Assembly (NCBI RefSeq): GCF_018457175.1
Contig: NZ_JAGFNU010000001.1
Location: forward strand, 62,001 to 126,000
From: Pseudohalocynthiibacter aestuariivivens
Lineage (GTDB): Bacteria; Pseudomonadota; Alphaproteobacteria; Rhodobacterales; Rhodobacteraceae
DNA: 64,000 nucleotides
Direction: 5' to 3'
Numbering within the stretch: the stretch's first letter is position 1; every line of letters begins with the position of its first letter. A program made the translations under genes and the position numbers. Below, piece by piece: positions 7,758 to 13,745 of this stretch. The notes below the pieces were generated by a model, which ran no database searches, had not been told where the DNA came from, and worked only from the letters and a program-made list of their open reading frames with translations.

Positions 7758-8105
7758 TTAATCGATTGGCCGGATGAGTTTGCGCTCCAGAATGCGCAAC
7801 ACCTTTTTCAGATCAGCCCCACGCTTTAGGATTTGCCCGTCCATTGCGATAACGGAATATTGCCCTTGTCGCAGGCGCATTTTAGGGCGCTTTTCTATTC
7901 GGTAAAGCGGATGCTCTGCGGTGCGGCGGAAGACAGAAAAAACAGCGACATCCCGCAGACAGGAAATGCCATAATCGCGCCACTCACCGGCAGCGACCAT
8001 ACGCCCATAAAGCGCCAGAATATCCCCGAGCTCTTTCCGGTCAAAACTGATCTGATCCGGAATCCCGTTGCTTTGCGGAAAAGGCGTCGGTGACTGAATT
8101 GTCAT
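7758..8105 (-). CDS. DUF2794 domain-containing protein
   Basis: The 115-residue protein matches the alphaproteobacterial DUF2794 family as I know it: FDRKELGDILALYGRMVAAGEW is followed by a basic beta-rich half (YRIEKRPKMRLRQGQYSVI) ending in a helical LKKVLRILERKL. Function is unknown. It is convergent with the NlpC/P60 gene, leaving a single base between the stops, and faces the 455-base gap before frmA. No strong ribosome site is visible upstream of ATG 8105. Confidence 0.85.
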   Translation of the reverse strand: MTIQSPTPFPQSNGIPDQISFDRKELGDILALYGRMVAAGEWRDYGISCLRDVAVFSVFRRTAEHPLYRIEKRPKMRLRQGQYSVIAMDGQILKRGADLKKVLRILERKLIRPID

Positions 8106-8243
8106 ATTGTAAGACTGGCCTGTGTTTCGGACAAAATCAAGCGCTGCCCCGAGTTTGCCTAAAAAAGATCAGGAAAGAGCCTTGCCACAGCTATTATACA
8201 GCCCTGATTACCTGTTCAATTTGCCTTGTAGCGACCAACGCTA

Positions 8244-8340
8244 GCCTCGGTGTCATGGATTAACAGCCCCCACCCAGCCTGTGGCACCGGGGCAAGATCA
8301 ACCAAAGCCCTCACCTCTGTGGTGGGGGCTTTGTCTTTTG
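8244..8340 (+). promoter_or_regulatory. Mutually exclusive hairpins with a terminator: candidate attenuator or small RNA
   Basis: The 455-base gap 8106-8561 holds a structured block. GCCTCGGTG (8244-8252) pairs with CACCGGGGC (8286-8294). A 12-bp stem, 8305-8316 with 8322-8333 (one G-U), is followed by gtctttt and looks like an intrinsic terminator. AGCCCCCACC (8265-8274) is a perfect 10-base complement of the terminator's 3' arm (8322-8331), so it can compete as an anti-terminator. The block ends 222 bases before the frmA start. It is either a conditional terminator in a long frmA leader or a separate small RNA. No known riboswitch class was recognised. Confidence 0.45.
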
Positions 8341-8561
8341 CAGTCTTCCTTAAAACCTGGTCCGAAAACGACAACGCAGTTATGGCGGAGCGCATTGTTG
8401 GCAATGGTTAAATCATAGGGCCGTACTGCGATTCGTGGCATTGGATTGTTGGTCACTTTTAACGATGGGTCGTGACAGCCCAGATTGGCGTCGTCTTTGA
8501 GTTGATAAGTTTCATGGATTCGATCAAAGTGACTCCGAGTTTTAAAAAGGGAGGAGTGACC

Positions 8562-9674
8562 ATGCGCACCCGTGCAGCCGTTGCCTTAGAGGCGGGAAAA
8601 CCGCTTGAGATTATGGAAGTGAACCTTGAAGGCCCGAAGGCGGGCGAGGTTTTGGTTGAAATCAAGGCAACCGGAATTTGCCATACCGACGAGTTTACCC
8701 TTTCAGGGGCTGATCCGGAGGGGCTTTTCCCGGCGATTTTGGGGCACGAGGGTGCAGGTGTGGTTCTGGAAGTTGGGGCTGGTGTGAGCAGCCTGAAACC
8801 CGGCGATCACGTGATCCCGCTCTATACCCCGGAATGTCGCGAATGCGAATATTGCCTTAACCCGAAAACCAACCTGTGCCAGTCGATCCGCAGCACACAG
8901 GGTCAAGGCCTGATGCCGGATGGAACAAGCCGGTTTTCAATGCTCGATGGGACGCCGATCTTGCACTACATGGGGTGTTCAACCTTCTCAAATCATACGG
9001 TTCTGCCGGAAATCGCATTGGCAAAAGTCCGCAAAGACGCGCCATTTGACAAGATTTGCTACATTGGTTGCGGGGTCACCACGGGCATTGGTGCGGTGAT
9101 CAATACAGCAAAAGTAGAAATTGGGTCCAGGGGGATCGTTTTTGGCCTGGGGGGTATCGGTCTCAACGTGATTCAGGGGCTGCGGTTGGCAGGCGCTGAT
9201 CAGATTGTTGGCGTTGACCTGAACCCAACCAAAGTTGAAATGGCAACACGTTTCGGCATGACGGACTTCGTGAACCCAACTGAGGTTGAGGGCGATCTGG
9301 TCGCGCATCTGGTTGAACTGACTGGCGGTGGCGCGGACTATACGTTTGACGCAACAGGAAACGTTGGTGTGATGCGGGCGGCGCTTGAATCTGCGCACAA
9401 GGGCTGGGGTGAAAGCATAATCATTGGCGTTGCACCCGCCGGAGCAGAGATTTCGACCCGACCTTTCCAGCTTGTCACCGGCCGGAGTTGGCGCGGTACA
9501 GCCTTTGGCGGCGCGCGCGGTCGTACCGATGTGCCAAAAATTGTTGATTGGTATATGGCCGGAAAGATCGAGATCGACCCGATGATTACCCATGTGCTGC
9601 CACTGGAGGACATCAACAAAGGCTTCGACTTGATGCACGAAGGCAAATCGATCAGGGCTGTGGTGGAGTTCTAG
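8562..9674 (+). CDS. frmA: S-(hydroxymethyl)glutathione dehydrogenase / class III alcohol dehydrogenase
   Basis: The 370-residue zinc, NAD-dependent enzyme oxidises S-hydroxymethylglutathione (formaldehyde plus glutathione) to S-formylglutathione. Catalytic zinc ligands appear in ATGICHTDE and in the GHEGAG block. The structural zinc cysteines are [15 protein letters not shown]. The Rossmann motif is GLGGIGLN, and [10 protein letters not shown] is typical of class III ADH. The start at 8562 is set by GGGAGGAG 5-12 bases upstream; an in-frame extension to 8472 has no such support. The partner fghA lies 3.2 kb downstream, after tetR, mbfA and an AEC gene. Rhodobacter work calls the gene adhI. 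Confidence 0.95.
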
Positions 9675-12753: not shown

Positions 12754-12911
12754 ACACGCCGAAGGTTTCATAAAAGATCGAAGTTCGATTTGTCGGTTGG
12801 CGTAAGTGATCTGTCGATTGTATCGGTCCCAAAGAATGTAAATACAGTTTAGGTTTGTCTCATACGCACGTCCTGTTAGTAGAGGGCAACGCGATAAAAA
12901 GGGGCGATCCA

Positions 12912-13745
12912 ATGGAAACCATCTCTGAAAACAAATGCTTTGGTGGCACACAGGGTGTCTATAGCCACACATCAGCAGTGTGCGGTTGTGAAATGACGTA
13001 CGGGTTGTTCCTGCCGGAAGAGGTGGAATTTGGCCCGGTTCCGGTTCTTTGGTATTTGTCCGGGCTAACCTGCACCCACGAAAATGCGATGGTCAAAGCA
13101 GGAGCGCAAGCCTGGGCGGCTGAGCAGGGCATTGCTTTGGTTTTTCCAGACACATCCCCTCGTGGTGACGGTGTTGCTGATGACGATGCCTTTGATCTGG
13201 GCCAAGGCGCGGGTTTCTATGTGAACGCGACAGAGGCACCATGGGCACCACATTTTCAGATGTGGGATTATGTGACAGAAGAGCTTCCCGCACTCTTGTT
13301 TGAAAACTTTGCGATCGATGAAGCGCGCCAAAGCATCACTGGCCACTCGATGGGTGGCCATGGTGCATTGACGATTGCGATGAATTTACCAGAACGTTTT
13401 CGTTCTGTTTCAGCCTTTTCACCAATTGCCAATCCGACCAAATCTGATTGGGGCCGCAACCAGTTAACGGCGTATCTTGGCTCGGACGAAGGCAAATGGG
13501 CAGCCAATGATGCAAGCCTGCTGATGCGCGAAAAAGGTTTTCCCGGTCCGGTTCTGATTGATCAGGGAACAGAGGATCAGTTTCTTGACCTGTTAAAGCC
13601 GGAGGCTTTGGCAGACGCAATCGCGACACGTCGGCAAGAAGCAATTGTTCGGATGCAAAAAGGGTATGACCACAGCTATTTCTTCATTTCCACCTTCATG
13701 GAAGACCACGTGAATTTCCATGCAGAAGCTCTCTATGCGGGGTAA
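12912..13745 (+). CDS. fghA: S-formylglutathione hydrolase
   Basis: The 277-residue serine hydrolase releases formate and glutathione from S-formylglutathione, the second step after FrmA. The esterase-D fold motifs are clear: oxyanion region LSGLTCTHEN, nucleophile Ser146 in GHSMGGHG, Asp222 in QGTEDQFL, and His254 in YDHSYFF. ATG 12912 is chosen because it gives the family length and has GGGG upstream; an in-frame extension to 12855 adds unrelated residues. Three bases separate its stop from sthA, so formaldehyde oxidation and transhydrogenase are likely co-expressed. Confidence 0.95.
   Translation: METISENKCFGGTQGVYSHTSAVCGCEMTYGLFLPEEVEFGPVPVLWYLSGLTCTHENAMVKAGAQAWAAEQGIALVFPDTSPRGDGVADDDAFDLGQGAGFYVNATEAPWAPHFQMWDYVTEELPALLFENFAIDEARQSITGHSMGGHGALTIAMNLPERFRSVSAFSPIANPTKSDWGRNQLTAYLGSDEGKWAANDASLLMREKGFPGPVLIDQGTEDQFLDLLKPEALADAIATRRQEAIVRMQKGYDHSYFFISTFMEDHVNFHAEALYAG

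Follow-up and report, generated by a model that had tools for sequence, protein, structure and literature searches.

In Pseudohalocynthiibacter aestuariivivens, the region between the DUF2794 gene and frmA is most likely the gene of a small regulatory RNA, whose near-constant C-rich loop is common to many Rhodobacteraceae, and not a switch for the adjacent gene of formaldehyde detoxification. The window, that is, the whole stretch of 64,000 nucleotides analyzed here, has at 8228-8340 a putative gene for a small RNA in its own right; it belongs to a Rhodobacteraceae-wide family, and its transcription would start near 8228. That this is an independent small RNA is regarded as highly probable because of its covarying hairpin, near-invariant loop, terminator, synteny with DUF2794, and GCC array at a fixed distance. 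The explanation considered best overall, and judged probable as a whole, is a small RNA gene that would be activated by an OmpR-type regulator and act in trans via its loop, with frmA as a mere neighbor. An OmpR/PhoB-family response regulator, for which ChvI is the leading candidate, would activate the RNA from the array, and the RNA would act in trans by exposing its C-rich loop, most likely pairing with G-rich stretches of mRNAs. The features of the locus are the following:

7758-8105, minus strand: gene of a DUF2794 protein (PF10984), divergent, syntenic with window-type copies
8146-8203, plus strand: CC/GCC array phased at 11 bp, a probable response-regulator operator
8228-8340, plus strand: predicted small RNA of approximately 106-113 nt, its transcript inferred from conservation, covariation, and upstream signals anchored at GTAGC
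8229-8233 with 8239-8243, plus strand: P1, a small hairpin (UAGCG/CGCUA) found by folding
8244-8258 with 8279-8293, plus strand: P2, a 15-bp hairpin with a 20-nt loop, the conserved core (fold and covariation)
8265-8277, plus strand: loop segment AGCCCCCACCCAG, nearly unchanging and, from loop conservation, probably the functional (seed) part
8303-8339, plus strand: intrinsic terminator, a 13-bp stem (8303-8315 with 8321-8333) followed by TCTTTT
8562-9674, plus strand: frmA, S-(hydroxymethyl)glutathione dehydrogenase (NCBIfam), a downstream neighbor not judged part of the system

The predicted RNA would run from the conserved GTAGC (approximately 8228) to the U-tract. Folded together with the terminator, 8190-8345 does better than dinucleotide shuffles (z = -3.09; 2 of 200 shuffles as good), while 8190-8300, in which the terminator is left out, has only a modest excess (z = -1.57; 16 of 200 as good). 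Anchored instances, in which the hairpin carries the exact loop and a GTAGC-like anchor is present, number 127 in 115 loci; they come from 144 hairpin-and-loop matches, the rest of which had no anchor, lay too close to the end of a contig, or had matched by chance. P1, overlooked in the earlier sequence-only reading, can form with 4-6 bp in 119 of the 127 instances, compared with at least 4 bp in 228 of 635 shuffles. A helix of at least 5 bp closing around P1 and P2 is possible in 18 of 127 instances against 30 of 635 shuffles and would be at most a feature of some copies. The sequence-only reading had recognized both the terminator and the main hairpin, and these stand, but their dimensions do not: the terminator stem, given as 12 bp at 8305-8333, is one of 13 bp (8303-8315/8321-8333), and the hairpin, given as 9 bp at 8244-8252/8286-8294, has 15 bp and a 3' arm that had been off by one base.

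The structure is conserved together with an unpaired segment, as expected of a small RNA. When 100 loci were given to a covariance model, 127 matches were obtained at E ≤ 0.001 and 115 at E ≤ 1e-9, the stricter cut removing 11 opposite-strand echoes and the weak partial match L051. Among the 115 sequences, all 14 of 14 P2 pairs changed on both sides, with 203 double-change cells against 61.3 in shuffled data, and 97.5% of P2 cells were paired against 36%-48% when slid; this alignment was fitted to the model, which favors structure. RNAalifold recovered the same hairpin from the unfitted 31-sequence alignment, with 10 of 14 pairs doubly changed. The many G-U pairs in P2 point to RNA. The loop GCCCCCACCCAG is near-invariant, its columns being identical in 114-115 of the 115 sequences, partly by selection, as many of these loci had been found by patterns containing the loop. 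In 24 loci taken from model matches without a loop pattern (20 hand-picked mid-scoring rows of the order-level search and four rows of the class-level search), CCCCCACCC was present in 23 and CCCCCATCC in one, and the full CCCCCACCCAG in 21, a check that is only partly independent because the model rewards the loop.

The family is widely spread. A blastn search with 8150-8350 gave matches in 37 of 295 genomes of the family (E ≤ 0.001). The sequence-only reading had proposed a search of other Rhodobacteraceae with covariance models upstream of frmA; with a model built from 31 aligned instances of 30 loci, the element indeed proved widespread, with matches in 304 of 394 sampled Rhodobacteraceae genomes (E ≤ 0.001), but the association with frmA did not hold, as detailed below. 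In the order-level search, 241 of 292 genomes matched (E ≤ 1e-5), all rows listed belonging to the window's own family, and since every listed row, match or not, is from that family, this search is no test outside Rhodobacteraceae. In the class sample, seven of 289 genomes matched, of which four belong to the window's family and three others are weak (E 3e-4 to 9e-4). A pattern scan of named contigs found at least 119 stretches, some of them evident chance matches in unrelated phyla; the genera among the pattern matches listed include Rhodovulum, Celeribacter, Sulfitobacter, Pseudorhodobacter, and Tateyamaria, all Rhodobacteraceae. Matched genomes of the family have one to three matches each among the rows listed, a number that can exceed the copies present because of weak opposite-strand echoes of the same hairpin (11 among the 100-locus matches). 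The P. aestuariivivens genome has two distinct copies, that of the window and another at G000:C44:71487-71564 (locus L188). Two anchored copies approximately 180-270 bp apart occur in L014, L021, L031, L033, L059, L071, L075, L089, L124, L136, L139, and L170; model matches are also paired in L049, L066, L074, and L126, and four lie within approximately 800 bp in genome G858.

No Rfam release 15 family reached its gathering score in the whole window or in 10 other loci of the element. An E-value search of 8050-8600 returned five weak matches, all below gathering scores, the best being sar (24 bits against 43). The element appears to be a regulatory small RNA, a known kind of molecule, without an Rfam 15 family in the tested loci. 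A description of this RNA was not found in the openly licensed PMC literature, where the accessible text of the small RNA catalogues of R. pomeroyi (PMC4809877) and P. denitrificans (PMC5107571) carries no sequences; the window RNA may overlap an RNA listed in either catalogue.

Upstream of the instances, an array of CC and GCC repeats keeps a fixed distance from GTAGC. The CC frequency peaks at -81 (0.34), -70 (0.34), -59 (0.58), -48 (0.46), -37 (0.43), and -26 (0.61), the mean being 0.12; the array of the window itself is imperfect, with CC at -81, -70, -48, and -26, four of the six family positions, together with one GCC pair. GCC pairs at period 11 number 87 upstream of the 127 instances against 14.3 ± 4.1 in ten dinucleotide-shuffle sets; every other period between 6 and 16 gives 7-23 pairs, the largest of the remaining excesses being at period 16 (23 against 12.5 ± 3.0). 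CC pairs at period 11 number 438 against 160.7 ± 5.8, periods 10 and 12 being raised as well (260 and 255), and in 91 of the 127 instances CC occupies at least four of the six positions when a shift of one base is allowed, against 6 of 127 shuffles. None of these array statistics can be read as a probability since related sequences are not independent. In 18 of the 20 mid-scoring model loci, GCC pairs at period 11 number 10 against 0.7, a number reached by none of 200 shuffles, and only -81 and -48 individually reach 40% in them. A genome scan for three GCC at 11-bp steps gave 70 matches against 46 for the reversed pattern.

Direct repeats approximately one helical turn apart are usual for OmpR-family regulators (PMC9275681), and the array is fairly likely to be an operator of an OmpR/PhoB-type response regulator that would control the RNA. 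The ChvI consensus of S. meliloti is quoted as N-GCC-N8-GCC (PMC9731502), and GCC-N8-GCC is found upstream of the element, strongly across the instances and as one pair in the window. In the P. aestuariivivens genome, the genes for a response regulator, a ChvG-like kinase, and HprK directly follow one another, in an order that we take to be chvI-chvG-hprK. HprK scored above its Pfam cut-off. Among NCBIfam models the kinase matched that of Caulobacter ChvG best, at 374.8 bits where the cut-off is 740; for the response regulator, no family cut-off was reached among the best 25 matches listed. Against ChvI, the upstream region of chvI shows by eye three TTAGCGCAACCA repeats and no GCC array. These repeats, 20 bp apart (L264:1446-1497; G000:C1, approximately 172,945-172,996) upstream of the chvI-like gene, are possibly an autoregulatory site. 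Other motifs are assigned to ChvI and its relatives elsewhere, namely TTGC-N3-GCAA for Caulobacter ChvI (PMC9731502) and, in the text available for Brucella, other repeats named as boxes of the ChvI homologue BvrR (PMC10538546). ChvI in particular is therefore put forward tentatively, as a lead only. CenR was also considered as the regulator and seems less likely: compared by consensus letters, its motif TGA-N8-TGA (PMC9275681) differs from the CC/GCC of the array.

The targets of the loop were sought by complementarity. Perfect 9-mers complementary to the loop showed no excess in the P. aestuariivivens genome, numbering 30 and 13 where the reversed patterns gave 27 and 23, respectively (two matches of each are the element's own antisense), and no excess of complementarity to the loop was seen in the start regions of the DUF2794 (54), ggt (48), rsbW-like (7), and frmA (11) genes. 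The heptamer GGTGGGG before ATG exceeded its reversed pattern both in P. aestuariivivens (85 against 31) and in G268 (121 against 42), but against the fairer permuted control GGGGTGG it was no commoner in P. aestuariivivens (85 against 93). In G268, the permuted control gave 121 against 91, with 33 of the matches listed belonging to one repeated 20-mer, GGTGGGGGCGACCAAGAATG, which is found in many places of G268:C1 and is probably part of a repeat or mobile element. An 11-nt loop-complement match, TGGGTGGGGGC, lies in L213 (G000:C34:108649-108657, minus strand) inside a frame whose translation contains GMGGGTGTG and which is presumably ftsZ; the match is probably a chance effect of glycine codons. 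The permuted control slightly lowers the odds of base-pairing, and that the RNA base-pairs in trans through its loop is held to be only somewhat likelier than the opposite.

The RNA could instead act mainly as a decoy, its C-rich loop capturing an RNA-binding protein in place of pairing with mRNAs, which would agree with a long near-invariant segment for which no target excess was found and with the presence of more than one copy in some genomes, P. aestuariivivens included. Seeds that serve several targets, however, commonly lie in a long invariant loop as well, and no candidate protein was identified, so a decoy is considered unlikely, and a trans-acting, base-pairing RNA is preferred.

By the letters that follow the anchor, the 127 instances were split into 68 window-type and 59 second-type copies. 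A divergent DUF2794 gene is present within 3 kb of 61 of the 68 window-type copies, with the protein start 121-125 nt from GTAGC in 40 of those 61. Second-type copies have, within 3 kb, RsbW-like (51 of 59), STAS (51 of 59), and gamma-glutamyltransferase (48 of 59) genes. The copy at L188:1501-1578 and its relatives lie between a STAS/RsbW-like pair and the gamma-glutamyltransferase gene, mostly without an obvious terminator. The split is imperfect, as five window-type copies (in L027, L055, L091, and L151, and one of those in L059) have the surroundings of the second type, and in L014, L021, and L089 tandem copies stand between DUF2794 and gamma-glutamyltransferase. Just past the hairpin, the window and roughly half of the window-type copies carry a terminator: a simple scan of the next approximately 70 nt found one in 32 of the 68 copies of this type and in 8 of the 59 second-type copies. 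An anchored upstream array and a terminator are both present in the window.

These neighborhoods bear on whether the element might be a cis-acting structured 5' leader that regulates whichever gene is downstream, ggt or frmA, on a signal. Gamma-glutamyltransferase is downstream of the 48 second-type copies mentioned, its protein match starting 126-215 nt from GTAGC in 38 of them, and second-type copies mostly lack an obvious terminator, all of which would suit a leader. The two types differ in their downstream genes, however, tandem copies exist, the window copy ends in a terminator, and some second-type loci have by eye a promoter-like sequence after the hairpin. A leader is accordingly thought improbable.

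The sequence-only reading had seen in the locus an attenuator or riboswitch of frmA. In such a scheme, 8265-8274 as an anti-terminator would pair with 8321-8330 until a signal released it. The complementarity is present in the window: 8265-8274 (AGCCCCCACC) perfectly complements 8321-8330 in the 3' arm of the terminator over 10 nt and in the right order, and the next sizeable gene on the same strand (8562-9674) is S-(hydroxymethyl)glutathione dehydrogenase, at 606 bits against an NCBIfam cut-off of 543.95. The regulatory claim itself fails, the alternative pairing being neither conserved nor energetically favorable and frmA being near few copies. Among 32 window-type terminators, the match between loop and 3' arm is 3-7 nt long in 31, and only the window reaches 10 nt; with reversed arms the match in the same 32 copies, window included, is 2-7 nt, so the complementarity is no more than chance would give. 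The lack of conservation in these terminators (n = 32) is what the sequence-only reading had itself named as refuting its proposal, and no conserved, mutually exclusive terminator and anti-terminator pairings were found. Forcing the 10-nt pairing requires the conserved 15-bp hairpin and the 13-bp terminator to open at a cost of approximately 14 kcal/mol (-40.8 against -54.9 kcal/mol, in a model with P2 opened and no pseudoknot), and the mean pair probability of the 10 alternative pairs is approximately 4e-10. Nor is there a conserved link to a regulated downstream gene, since frmA was seen within 3 kb downstream, at varying distances, in only 8 of the 68 window-type copies, although more may have it there because many loci reach only approximately 1.5 kb downstream. 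On conservation, energy, and synteny, the attenuator was rejected and is rated very improbable. The case shows how a perfect complementarity in a single genome may point to an attenuator for which a comparison of genomes gives no support. Covariation and synteny, together with the array kept upstream of the copies, back the passing remark in the sequence-only reading that the block might also be an independent small RNA. Locus L025, which has no anchor, is also near frmA, and an esterase-family protein (PF00756) is encoded in the window at 12855-13745 on the plus strand, not far from frmA; it is perhaps, we assume, S-formylglutathione hydrolase.

An untranscribed DNA-level element, such as a recombination site, a repeat, or a protein-binding palindrome, would fit the element's recurrence as an inverted repeat, with some copies in tandem, but is hardly credible in view of the frequent G-U pairs, the few copies per genome with conserved synteny, and the anchored upstream signals.

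Among known systems, the predicted independent small RNA resembles ChvR of C. crescentus, likewise an alphaproteobacterial small RNA with stem-loops, which is under the OmpR-type ChvG-ChvI system (PMC6237742), a kind of control that is inferred here. ChvR is activated by Caulobacter ChvI, and two of its stem-loops pair with the target (PMC6237742). Unlike the window RNA, ChvR is described, in the text available, as specific to C. crescentus with the one target chvT (PMC6237742), whereas the window RNA has its own conserved loop and, outside Rhodobacteraceae, only three weak matches among 289 class genomes. The putative operator array is like the ChvI-type promoters of S. meliloti (N-GCC-N8-GCC) in its GCC direct repeats 11 bp apart (PMC9731502), but the organism's own chvI has by eye no such array upstream. 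StsR, UpsM, CcsR1-4, SorX, SorY, and Pos19 of Rhodobacter sphaeroides come from the same bacterial family and were compared by description; StsR is tied to the stationary phase and alternative sigma factors (PMC8307010). The succession of a hairpin and a terminator recalls Thr_leader (RF00506), for which cmscan gave a weak match (23.1 bits, the gathering score being 55), but unlike leader attenuators, the element has no conserved alternative pairing and, in window-type copies, no conserved downstream gene.

It is conceivable, if rather doubtful, that through this RNA family a response regulator of envelope stress (ChvI or a relative) extends its control to the RNA level; the phased GCC array would then switch on RNAs sharing GCCCCCACCCAG for a common set of mRNAs, as a lineage-specific counterpart of Caulobacter ChvR. 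If transcribed as predicted, the element would count as a candidate regulatory RNA that is widespread in a bacterial family of major importance in the sea and other environments, with no matching Rfam 15 family in the tested loci. Its array would provide a testable link to a two-component system, and its fixed loop makes the targets testable.
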